Shown here piece after piece: positions 52,923 through 57,203 of a stretch of 64,000 nucleotides of DNA. The notes under the pieces were generated by a model. It searched no databases, was not told the DNA's origin, and saw only the letters and a list, made by a program, of their open reading frames with translations. A program made the translations under genes and the position numbers. Source of the stretch: Chryseobacterium sp. G0162 (GTDB taxonomy: Bacteria; Bacteroidota; Bacteroidia; Flavobacteriales; Weeksellaceae); NCBI RefSeq assembly GCF_003815715.1, contig NZ_CP033922.1:4450001-4514000 (forward strand), given 5' to 3'. Position 1 is the stretch's first letter, and each line of letters begins with the position of its first letter.

Positions 52923-54373
52923 GTGCAAAAAAAATATTTTAGTTCCATTCTTTTGCCTTTAAGTATATTAGGATTCTCTCAGATTCCTAATTTCCCGAAT
53001 AAAGAACAGCTACATCCTTCAGCTGTTCAGAATTATTCTACCAATAATTTTACTCATCCCCAAAAGAATCAAAATATTCCAGCTTTACCCTCATCATTTT
53101 CTAGTTCAAATACTTCCAGAATACAGCAACAAAATATGACGATGGTTCAAAATGATTTTAAAAGAATTGAAGCAGAAGAAAAGGAAAAAAGACAACATAA
53201 ATATTATTCTGACGAAATTCAGAAGCAGGAATCAAAAATATATTTATTTAACTCATTGGCCGATAAAAAAGGAACAAAAGCATATTATACAGCATTTAGT
53301 AATCTTTCAAAATTCAATCCTGAAGATTATTCAGTAACTGATGCGGTTTTTATTGTTGAAAATGCTTACTACAATGATGATAAAAATTTCCAAAGCACAT
53401 TTCAAAATAGCATTCAGAAAGCTGTAAAAATTATTCAGAATCAAATCATTAGTGAAAAGATTGATGAGACTGATAACAGCTCAAAGAATTTAGCTATATT
53501 CTAATATTTTGCTGAAAATACTAAGCAAAACGGAAAAATAGTCCATAAAGCAATGAAGTATGATTTTGAAGATTATATGGGTGTAAAGGATTATTCCAAA
53601 ATGTTTGTTTCTAAGCTCATGAAATCTAATACTGGGCAATGTCATTCAATGCCATTGTTGTATCTGATTTTAGCAGAACAAATCGGGGCGGAAGCCTTTT
53701 TAGTAATGTCTCCGAATCACTCTTATATTCGATACATGGATGATTCGAGAGAAATGATAAGTTTAGAGCTTACTAACGGAATGTTTTCAGCAAATTCCTT
53801 TGTCCTTAATTCTGGTTACATCAAATCTGAGGCATTACAGAATAAACTGTATATGCAGAATTTAAGTAAGAAAGAAGTCTTATCGCAAACATTTGTTGAT
53901 TTAGCGAGCGGTTATATTCACAAATTCGGATATGATGAATTTGTAGGACAGGTTTAAATAAAGCATTAGAACTTAATCCTAACAATATCAATGCTACTTT
54001 ATGGAAAAGTAATATTGATCAAATCCGTTTTCAGGAAGCCTGTAAAAGGATAGGAATTAATTATGAAGACAAGCAAGAATTAGAAAACATCCGAAATTAT
54101 CCAAATTTAGTAGGCCAGCTTCAAGAAATTAATAATGAATTCGATAAAATTGACCAGTCAGGATTTAGTATAATGCCACCAGAAGATTATGAACAATGGT
54201 TAAGTTCATTAAATACTGCTGAAAACAAGCAAAAGAGTGAAGAAATTGCGGAGCGTATGAGGCTTCTGAATGCACAAAAGCAGAAAGAAACCCTGCAACA
54301 ACAAAAATTAAAACCAATACCTCCTAAAAAGGAAACGCCTAAAGTTTATACCATTCCTAAAGCATGGTTGTAA
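52923..54373 (+). pseudogene. Decayed secreted Cys/His (transglutaminase-like) protein with TPR-like tail
   Basis: A gene of about 483 codons with two defects. From GTG 52923 it has a signal peptide (KKYFSSILLPLSILGFSQ) and Ser/Asn/Gln-rich residues up to an in-frame TAA at 53502-53504. The same frame continues with KAMKYDFEDYMG and VSKLMKSNTGQCHSMP, then ends after FVGQV. A -1 shift near 53951 continues with LNKALELNPNNINATLWK to 54373. The protein is the paralogue of the intact gene at 56145 (shared YDFED, LFVSKLL-like, KGNCNSMPYLY vs TGQCHSMPLLY, PNHIYI vs PNHSYI). The Cys and His of the putative active site are kept, which suggests the decay is recent. Confidence 0.85.
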
Positions 54374-54408
54374 GAAAAATTTTAAATTTAGAAAAGCATA
54401 ATTGTTAT

Positions 54409-55581: not shown

Positions 55582-56144
55582 GAAAATTTTTAATAATCAT
55601 TCTAAATTCTTTTCTATTAAGTTGTAATACTAAAAAAGACGAATTTAGAACGGAGACTGTAGGAAAAGTTTCTTTTGAAGTTCCAACAAATTGGAAGAAA
55701 AAAGATATTAAAGGCATTGATTCTAAAGGCATTGATTCTAAAATCACAACCTTAATAACATCTGCTTCAGACACAATATACATTGAATATGGTGCTTATA
55801 ATAATCCATTTAATGAATCAAAAATTATTGTTGATGACAGTTTGATATATAAGACTTTAAAAGAAAATTCTGTTGGGGAAAATGTTGAATTTTCTACTAA
55901 CAAGGAGCTTGACAATAGTCAGGGTATTTTTTTAGATAATTACTATTATTATGATACAATCAATAATCATCTAGCAAAGGTAATGATACCTAAAAAAACT
56001 GAAAAAGGACAAATGGGTATATATATCGCTAATGTTGATGAAAAGAAAAATAATTTTTCTATTTATACACTTCATCCATTAAGAGGAACAGATAGTTTAA
56101 ATTTTTTTAGGTTGAAGAAATCAATTCAAATAAAACCACAGTAA
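55578..56144 (+). CDS. Lipoprotein, candidate immunity protein to the RHS-tip protease
   Basis: A 188-residue lipoprotein with a signal and lipobox-like LLSC (Cys16) and a Thr/Lys-rich linker. The mature part has beta-rich features (VGKVSFEVPTNWKKKDIK, TDSLNFFRLKKSIQI). Its start overlaps the stop of the toxin gene by four bases, the usual arrangement of toxin and immunity genes, and its placement in the periplasm would fit a toxin that acts there. A 15-base perfect tandem (55710-55739) codes for KGIDS twice. No relative with known function comes to mind, so the immunity role is inference. Confidence 0.72.
   Translation: MRKFLIIILNSFLLSCNTKKDEFRTETVGKVSFEVPTNWKKKDIKGIDSKGIDSKITTLITSASDTIYIEYGAYNNPFNESKIIVDDSLIYKTLKENSVGENVEFSTNKELDNSQGIFLDNYYYYDTINNHLAKVMIPKKTEKGQMGIYIANVDEKKNNFSIYTLHPLRGTDSLNFFRLKKSIQIKPQ
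55710..55739 (+). repeat. 15-base perfect tandem duplication inside a coding gene
   Basis: AAAGGCATTGATTCT occurs twice in a row and adds a second KGIDS pentapeptide to the lipoprotein without shifting the frame. Confidence 0.9.
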
Positions 56145-57203
56145 TTGAAAAAGATATACTTTATATTATCATTAAGCATTTCCTTTATGTTTAATGCACA
56201 GGAAAACCATTTTTACTCAGATGCTTTCCAAACACTAGATAATATGCTAAATGATAAACAACCATATACTTTTAAAACAGCAGTTTTCTCTGTTGAAAAC
56301 GCTTATAGTCAAGGAAAATTAGATACTGTACAACTCAATAGAAAAATTAAATTTTTAGCCAGTTTTTGTAGGCAACTTACAGCCAATAGAAAACTAAAAT
56401 ATACGGAAAAAGACGAATCTACAGTAAGTAAATATGCCGCAATTTACACAATAATGTGTCAAGAAACTCCTGTAATTATAGGTGATAAAACAGTAGAATA
56501 TAAACCGCTTACTTATGATTTTGAGGATGTATTTGGGCATAAAGAATTATCTAATCTGTTTGTGTCAAAATTGTTAGATACACAGAAAGGTAACTGTAAT
56601 TCCATGCCTTATTTATACAAAATTATTGCTGAAGAATTAGGAGTTGATGCGAATTTAGCACTTGCTCCAAATCACATTTACATTAAGCATAACATTAAAT
56701 CAATAGGCTGGTTCAATACAGAGTTAACCAGCGGTATTTTTCCACAGGATTCTTGGTTAATGGCTTCGGGGTATATTCATTTAGATGCTATCCAGAATGG
56801 TGTCTTTATGAAGGCATTGAACAATAAAGAAAGTCTTGCATTACTATTGGTTGATCTAGCAAATGCTTATGAAAGAAGTTATCCAGAAAATGATGGAAGT
56901 TTTTCTTTGAAATGTGCGGAAAGAGCAATACAGATACACCCTTATTTAGCAAATGCTTTGATATTACAGGCTGAAATTCATAAAAAACAATTTCAAAGAG
57001 TAATGAAAGAACAGAACATTCAAGATATTCAGACTGTATTGCCCAATCCTAAAGCAAAGGAATTGTTCAGCCTAATGAATAAAGAATATGCTCATATTCA
57101 CAAAATCGGTTATCGCAGTATGCCTGAGAATATGTACTTGGATTGGTTAGTGTCTTTGAAAACAGAGAGAGACAAGTATGAAGATAAAAGATTGCAGAAA
57201 TAA
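56145..57203 (+). CDS. Secreted Cys/His (transglutaminase-like) protein
   Basis: A 352-residue protein with a signal peptide (KKIYFILSLSISFMFNAQ). The start is TTG 56145, immediately after the preceding stop, since no ATG is suitable and the signal peptide then starts in place. A conserved core KGNCNSMPYLYKIIAEELG with Cys151 and LALAPNHIYI with His177 followed by NTELTSG resembles the Cys-His-Asp site of transglutaminase-like (SirB1-type) proteins. Helical TPR-like residues form the end (ALILQAEIHKKQFQ). It is cotranscribed with the toxin and lipoprotein. It may process or release the toxin, or be a second effector. Its decayed paralogue is at 52923. Confidence 0.75.
   Translation: MKKIYFILSLSISFMFNAQENHFYSDAFQTLDNMLNDKQPYTFKTAVFSVENAYSQGKLDTVQLNRKIKFLASFCRQLTANRKLKYTEKDESTVSKYAAIYTIMCQETPVIIGDKTVEYKPLTYDFEDVFGHKELSNLFVSKLLDTQKGNCNSMPYLYKIIAEELGVDANLALAPNHIYIKHNIKSIGWFNTELTSGIFPQDSWLMASGYIHLDAIQNGVFMKALNNKESLALLLVDLANAYERSYPENDGSFSLKCAERAIQIHPYLANALILQAEIHKKQFQRVMKEQNIQDIQTVLPNPKAKELFSLMNKEYAHIHKIGYRSMPENMYLDWLVSLKTERDKYEDKRLQK

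Follow-up and report, generated by a model that had tools for sequence, protein, structure and literature searches.

The closest described systems are polymorphic toxins of three kinds. Full-length RHS toxins, such as Rhs1 of P. laumondii, combine an RHS tip with an exchangeable C-terminal toxin and an adjacent immunity gene, and Rhs1 and its relatives free the toxin by means of an aspartyl autoprotease, the C-terminal motifs of which are located immediately in front of it (PMC8636562). The Maf systems of Neisseria (MafA/MafB, PMC3482391; MafI) have a secreted toxin with a constant N-terminus and a variable C-terminus, an immunity gene and a partner that is both constant and secreted, and the TANFOR toxins of Bacteroidota mostly carry a signal peptide and share a constant N-terminal domain (PMC7073777). 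The locus analyzed here lies in a stretch of 64,000 nucleotides (the window) of Chryseobacterium sp. G0162, whose genome is one 5.28-Mb contig (NZ_CP033922.1); the window comprises bases 4450001–4514000 of this contig. The cassette encodes a compact toxin with an RHS tip, a lipoprotein and secreted Cys/His (CH) proteins, designated CHA and CHB.

To judge from the sequence comparisons reported below, this locus is almost certainly a polymorphic toxin system. Our reading of it, to which we assign a probability of about 0.6, is that it forms a separate class of antibacterial toxin operon with exchangeable C-termini, in which the CH proteins are constant partners and may cut the toxin at its constant N-terminal region (N-module) or tip.

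Architecture and recurrence of the cassette

The toxin has a signal-like N-terminus and matches the RHS core model TIGR03696 with 35.7 bits (cut-off 32.5), at positions 42–76 of 76 only, and none of the RHS/YD-repeat models of Pfam and NCBIfam matched the 390-aa protein. Metzincins are defined by the motif HExxHxxGxxH and a Met-turn; the toxin contains HEFGHNMGMKH, with the Met-turn GLMKA downstream. These results bear out the layout given in a preliminary description of the window, in which an RHS tip was joined to a metzincin motif with no YD-repeat shell, and the coordinates agree with the four-base overlap of the toxin and lipoprotein genes noted there. CHB starts with a TTG codon, immediately 3′ of the lipoprotein stop codon.

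A search of 296 genomes of the family with the whole toxin revealed many matches limited to approx. residues 1–178, mostly (among the matches listed) in frames of 360–450 aa. With the N-module alone (residues 1–137) we obtained 47 matches in 34 genomes. All except one decayed copy (46/47) were located in stop-free frames of 216–446 aa, and not one of the 47 was held by a long RHS frame, so that the broken full-length RHS gene considered in the preliminary description was not seen. CHB gave matches in 44 of the genomes, including all 34 with an N-module; the remaining 10 had fragments only (at most 125 of 352 residues). In a scan of GTDB, whose genome set overlaps the 296, 24 of 25 CHB loci were accompanied by an N-module match, which in L056 and L057 was partial; the lone exception was a CHB tail.

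We fetched 44 loci, which together with the window contain all 47 N-module matches, and mapped the genes in 49 loci, including four from GTDB. A CH gene lay within 60 bp of the N-module gene in 46 of 50 cases, and the Cys/His neighbour proposed earlier is therefore found beside homologous loci as well. An assembly artefact is very unlikely, because the gene set recurs and the genome is a single contig; an RHS gene split by assembly was rejected on these grounds and on the 47 N-module matches without a long RHS frame. A chance neighbourhood was also rejected, as the same gene set recurs in loci of the family, the phylum and IMG/VR.

Gene order was compared in 43 loci with an open N-module, CHA, CHB and a C-terminal domain (CT) of more than 100 aa. 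Two arrangements were found: (i) CHA – toxin – immunity (sometimes with extra genes) – CHB, in 24 loci, and (ii) CHA – CHB – toxin – immunity, in 19. The word preceding the tip tracked the arrangement, being QP[IL]GDTHGRW in 24/24 loci of the former and QPY[LM]DT[AS]GRW in 19/19 of the latter; it may reflect descent alone, because gene order also follows lineage. In the same 43 loci, N-module similarity was correlated with that of CHA (rho 0.72), CHB (0.62) and the CT (0.28), all of these values exceeding the permutations. Chromosomal neighbours vary among many loci, and one subgroup has common neighbours.

Some loci showed additional features. In L062 (5838–8093) and similar loci, extra genes for proteins of about 326 aa, 255–281 aa (DUF2314 in L062) and about 110 aa are placed between the toxin/immunity pair and CHB; the 326-aa family was present in 12 loci, whose toxins have in common a CCW linker and, at the C-terminus, a conserved tail. 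L088 (7642–10892 of the oriented locus) contains tandem second and third toxin units, one of them decayed, with a CHB fragment between, which suggests cassette stacking.

Beyond the family, the CH profile revealed one further clear locus among 296 genomes of the order (G362) and six among 345 genomes of the phylum. The CH neighbour in all seven was a signal-bearing protein of 274–406 aa with an RHS tip, and the pairing of CH with a compact tip toxin was found in six other families. The N-module core was detected in 7 of the 345 phylum genomes, each of which also encodes CH; in G736 CH and the tip protein were present and the N core was undetectable, and G082 has a CH fragment. Weak CH matches in L127 (E 1.6e-4; a kinase/TPR protein) and L128 (E 2.2e-4), neither with a tip toxin, were set aside as unrelated.

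A relative was encoded in 3 of 13 IMG/VR pattern matches, and all three loci (L150–L152) contain CHA, CHB and a compact tip toxin. Among these contigs of the viral collection, L150 has a terminase and L152 an integrase. CH was matched in none of 50,697 phage records and in five of 72,556 plasmid records, all from Rhizobiales; a phage-only or plasmid-only gene was rejected on these counts. PADLOC gave no defence-system match.

Four (L146–L149) of the five Rhizobiales plasmid records, from Rhizobium, Mesorhizobium and Neorhizobium, were examined. In all four, CH is followed by a short protein matching RHS core positions 42/43–76 (29.6–35.4 bits; 2/4 above the cut-off), which places the cut at the same position of the core model as in the window toxin; behind a signal-like stretch this tip toxin starts with [RK]F[IV]SPD. 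Directly 5′ of CH, L146 and L148 encode a complete shell of 1832 and 1855 aa, respectively, with TcdB-type and RHS/YD-repeat matches and, in L146, a match to SpvB; the two shells match core positions 1–55 and 1–50 and end in YYDPAFGRF[VI]PKDD, followed by a tail. In L149 the shell is reduced to a remnant of 158 codons, which ends similarly and lies 5′ of CH, and the same stretch also contains an unsplit RHS frame running through this point. In L147 a Tn3 transposase takes the place of the shell and a stop codon disrupts the tip gene.

Exchange of toxin domains and immunity genes

The 50 CTs found on this one N-module type fell into 12 similarity clusters, which confirms the earlier expectation that the N-terminal region and tip recur with different C-terminal domains. 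Pfam placed 6 of 15 CT representatives above cut-off (Tox-REase-7 in two, AHH, TreTu, Toxin-JAB1 and Tox-MPTase2); among the others GIY-YIG, DUF7689 and Tlde1 scored below it and six were unmatched.

Co-variation with the following gene was analyzed in the 47 of 50 regions whose CT reached at least 100 aa and that were followed, at a distance of no more than 100 bp, by a gene (observed spacing −53 to +27 bp) encoding neither CHB nor a toxin; 39 of these were non-redundant. In the resulting 741 pairs the N-module was similar in 741, the CT in 97 and the next gene in 39. All 39 pairs with similar next genes were among the 97 with similar CTs, a number reached in none of 2000 permutations (mean 5.2, maximum 17). 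When CTs were at least 60% identical (31 pairs), the next genes were similar in 28, and L060 and L088 have CTs 97% and next genes 93% identical, with N-modules 74% identical.

The metzincin domain was also followed on eight other carriers, taken from the whole-toxin matches listed. Two of them are long RHS frames of 1151 and 3445 aa; the other six are shorter, with L136 truncated by a contig end and L134 split into two frames. In 8/8 the gene after this domain encodes a homologue of the window lipoprotein (33–77% identical), and the long RHS frames L129 and L130 have both the metzincin domain and the immunity gene in common with the window. This linkage and the co-variation of toxin and next gene strongly support the immunity function suggested for the lipoprotein in the preliminary description, and the lipoprotein is very probably the immunity protein; the toxicity of the cassette itself we infer.

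The boundaries of exchange were visible in closely related loci. L068 and L078 have flanking DNA 96–97% identical on both sides, including CHA and most of CHB, and a CT and next gene without similarity; the match ends at approx. residue 154, inside the tip, and restarts at approx. codon 22 of CHB. In L136, where the toxin domain of the window stands behind an ordinary RHS core, identity with the window was 65–93% in bins of 60 bases (mean about 83%), starting at approx. position 54889, in the tip, and continuing through the lipoprotein gene, and 35–52% of bases agreed before it, over the approx. 120 bases that are comparable (L136 starting at a contig end). Identity also climbs within the tip, at residues about 148–163, in the pairs L060/L088 and L077/L086. 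As identity shifts inside the tip, it seems that a single cassette pool serves both the compact toxins and the ordinary RHS proteins. This suggests a meaning for lone RHS tips on short proteins: the tip would be a common crossover segment, giving access to the toxin-immunity pool of full-length RHS proteins.

The features of the window locus are collected below. Its CHA gene is interrupted by one TAG and two TAA codons, and its terminal part was found as a separate match. The near relative CH25 (L034/L059) has a CHA orthologue with an intact 482-aa frame. The upstream gene had been described as a decayed paralogue of the Cys/His gene; the decay and the paralogy stand, with the refinement that it is the remnant of a distinct gene, CHA, which is normally intact beside CHB.

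Features of the cassette and its surroundings (positions refer to the window)
Feature	Position	Strand	Remarks
tRNA-Arg (tcg)	52535..52607	+	ARAGORN; just 5′ of the cassette
CHA, decayed upstream Cys/His transglutaminase-like paralogue	52923..54373	+	34% identity to CHB
CHA open pieces	52923-53504, 53553-53957, 54173-54373	+	
Compact polymorphic toxin (putative), 390 aa	54409..55581	+	
Signal peptide and constant N-module, toxin residues 1-137	54409..54819	+	47 matches in 34/296 family genomes
RHS core tip, toxin residues 137-172	54817..54924	+	TIGR03696 positions 42-76; left border of exchange
Exchangeable metzincin-like C-terminal domain (CT)	54925..55578	+	HEFGHNMGMKH about 55360-55392
Lipoprotein, 188 aa, probable cognate immunity protein	55578..56144	+	Homologue after 8/8 metzincin domains elsewhere; CT/next-gene co-variation
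CHB, secreted transglutaminase-like (TGL) and TPR protein, 352 aa	56145..57203	+	Menin-like model
CHB residues C151; H177; E193	56595-56597; 56673-56675; 56721-56723	+	

The genes flanking the cassette near tRNA-Arg differ between the window and CH25, and a tRNA-linked insertion is therefore possible. Elsewhere on the same chromosome (G000:C1, about 5077912–5093806) RHS cores occur clustered with short tip frames.

The Cys/His proteins and the proposed mechanism

The Cys-His-Glu motif is kept in 93/93 CH proteins of the family; C151, H177 and E193 are invariant in 54/54 CH sequences and in 26/26 rows of an alignment of the phylum and rhizobial proteins. The CH proteins carry what looks like a catalytic-type Cys-His-acid arrangement, with Glu as the acid, and are putative enzymes. 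Transglut_core2 matched 44/44 CH members at E up to 1 (best 4.2e-6) and a rhizobial CH with 50.5 bits; the C-terminal half is of TPR type. The fold predicted for CHB (AlphaFold2 model) is closest to that of menin, across model residues 21–334, with TglA, LapG and PNGase as the next closest. By sequence, the menin profile PF05053 was not among the 25 families listed (of 26) for the 44 CH members, weak matches having been filtered out, and a search of the PDB returned TPR proteins and weak unrelated chains and no menin.

A tree was built from 47 CH proteins (17 of the 44 aligned rows, 10 from five order-2 loci, 10 distant, 6 from IMG/VR and 4 rhizobial). When rooted at the midpoint, with some branches long, it contains CHA and CHB groups (support 94/80 and 100/98), each with representatives of every two-CH lineage, and the single-CH loci stand apart.

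We propose a constant secreted chassis, composed of the signal peptide, the N-module of about 120 aa and the C-terminal half of the RHS core, to which an exchangeable toxin domain is joined; in the window this domain would be a metzincin-like protease, with the overlapping lipoprotein as its immunity protein. Toxin and immunity genes would be swapped jointly by recombination, with the left border at the RHS tip, and CHA/CHB, as one or two secreted proteins of TGL fold and TPR type, would be the constant partners. In the periplasm the CH proteins may bind the N-module/tip in a menin-like pocket, where their Cys-His-Glu would cut it and release or activate the toxin in trans. Such a cut would replace the in-cis task of the aspartyl autoprotease of full RHS shells.

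The route of export is a conjectural part of this proposal, and the searches described here revealed none. PorV is present in the window genome, and the type VI secretion sheath PF05943 was not found in it (G000), a search in which the E. coli control was positive and for which Bacteroidota sheaths may be too divergent. Nucleases act in the cytoplasm. As the toxin families include nucleases and peptidase-like domains, the entry route into target cells must serve both.

Several observations weigh against the proposal. In the toxin, the metzincin models of Pfam scored just below their cut-offs (Reprolysin_5 24.5 bits against 27; Peptidase_M10 23.4 against 24), and the sorting-domain model of the type IX secretion system was absent among the NCBIfam matches of toxin, CHB and CHA. 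CT similarity was correlated with that of the N-module, CHA and CHB (rho 0.28, 0.24 and 0.12, matched by 0, 0 and 3 of 500 permutations, respectively), which means that chassis and toxin are not wholly independent, and the next genes were dissimilar in 3 of the 31 pairs with CTs at least 60% identical. CHA is broken in the window strain, and this copy of the cassette may therefore be failing or surviving on CHB alone. The usual third residue of the triad is Asp, in place of which CH has Glu. The window CHB matches Transglut_core2 weakly (18.0 bits; cut-off 23.5), and the score that Foldseek itself gives for menin is weak (E 1.6e-3, TM 0.31). Human menin is probably inactive, its catalytic Cys being absent (PMC10318531), and binding by CH without cutting is accordingly possible.

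The alternatives differ mainly in what CH does. That it serves the tip toxin as a dedicated partner is very likely on the evidence of its co-occurrence; an orphan RHS tip, displaced and equipped by chance with a signal peptide next to unrelated Cys/His genes, is highly improbable. The latter would fit the short CT frames without an N-module beside RHS genes (e.g. L132, L133) and the 21 TIGR03696 matches in the window genome, but it is contradicted by the co-occurrence of N-module and CH in 34/34 N-positive family genomes, many at different chromosomal sites, and of CH with compact tip toxins in six other families, IMG/VR contigs and Rhizobiales. The constancy of CH, its Cys-His-Glu, its co-diversification with the N-module and the word before the tip point to a putative action at the N-module/tip junction. 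We favour cutting over scaffolding and joining, and a processing peptidase, to which we give slightly less than an even chance, is tentatively adopted here.

Non-cutting CHA/CHB would be peptide-binding scaffolds or chaperones, which hold a short peptide of the N-module or tip in a TGL/TPR pocket and either escort the toxin or anchor it at the cell surface. The menin-like predicted fold, the TPR half, the co-diversification of N-module and CH and the example of human menin, which is without the catalytic Cys (PMC10318531), all speak for this role, but a pure scaffold would not need the Cys, His and Glu kept in 93/93 and 26/26 sequences, and we regard it as possible and rather unlikely. More doubtful still is a transglutaminase or transpeptidase that links the tip toxin covalently to a surface partner (in Bacteroidota) or to a tip-less RHS shell (in Rhizobiales). 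Its appeal lies in the TGL fold and in the rhizobial loci, where the shell ends in YYDPAFGRF[VIL]P[KR]DD and a tail, the tip toxin begins with [RK]F[IV]SPD and CH lies between them, such that a ligated product would resemble the unsplit RHS frame of the same plasmid stretch (L149). However, no shell gene was noted in the Bacteroidota gene maps, in which repeat models were run on only some neighbours, and a phylum-wide conserved acceptor residue was not seen; moreover, peptidases are the more frequent activity of the TGL fold.

A broader and speculative idea, which we consider improbable, is that of detachable RHS tips: RHS proteins would be cut at approx. position 42 of TIGR03696 into a chassis and a tip-toxin, which a menin-like Cys-His-Glu enzyme frees or ligates in trans. 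If this were true, the rhizobial CH would reunite the tip-less shell with the tip-toxin to give a canonical RHS protein, the Bacteroidota CH would work on the N-module, and menin would be a descendant or sister of a toxin-handling bacterial enzyme family.

Comparison with described systems

The kind of system, a polymorphic toxin, is known; we found no description of the compact chassis, of the CH partners or of the split tip. The search for this gene set covered the open-licence PMC literature, judged by the titles and abstract beginnings of the papers listed, and a non-exhaustive search of the same literature yielded no paper on bacterial relatives of menin. PMC10318531 describes menin as solely eukaryotic and calls the detailed bacterial roles of Transglut_core2-like proteins unknown.

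Unlike full-length RHS toxins, the toxin of this cassette has no YD shell or cage, and it has an N-module of its own and the constant partners CHA/CHB. In the Maf systems the partner MafA, presumed to anchor the toxin, is a lipoprotein and not a TGL/TPR protein, and an RHS tip goes unmentioned in the available part of PMC3482391. TANFOR toxins differ in being large proteins, with no CH partner mentioned in the part of PMC7073777 at hand; TANFOR (TIGR02542) was not among the NCBIfam matches at E up to 1, in a library whose inclusion of this model was not checked.

A TGL fold is tied to RHS toxins in the inactive transglutaminase domains placed before RHS repeats (PMC3482391). Those domains are fused in cis and are without catalytic residues, whereas CH proteins are encoded by separate genes, keep the triad and have no repeats. 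LapG and McjB, also among the closest known comparisons, are TGL peptidases on secreted or toxin precursors. To our knowledge, neither LapG nor McjB has a TPR half, and their operons differ from the CH loci.

Our reading, if correct, defines a class of short polymorphic toxins with constant partners of their own, present in Bacteroidota and on phage-like contigs and split on Rhizobiales plasmids, and it offers Transglut_core2-like proteins a testable job. With menin (PF05053), CH has about 9% identity and differs from it in keeping the Cys and in being secreted; the structural model nevertheless suggests that CH is a bacterial fold relative of this cancer-relevant eukaryotic scaffold.

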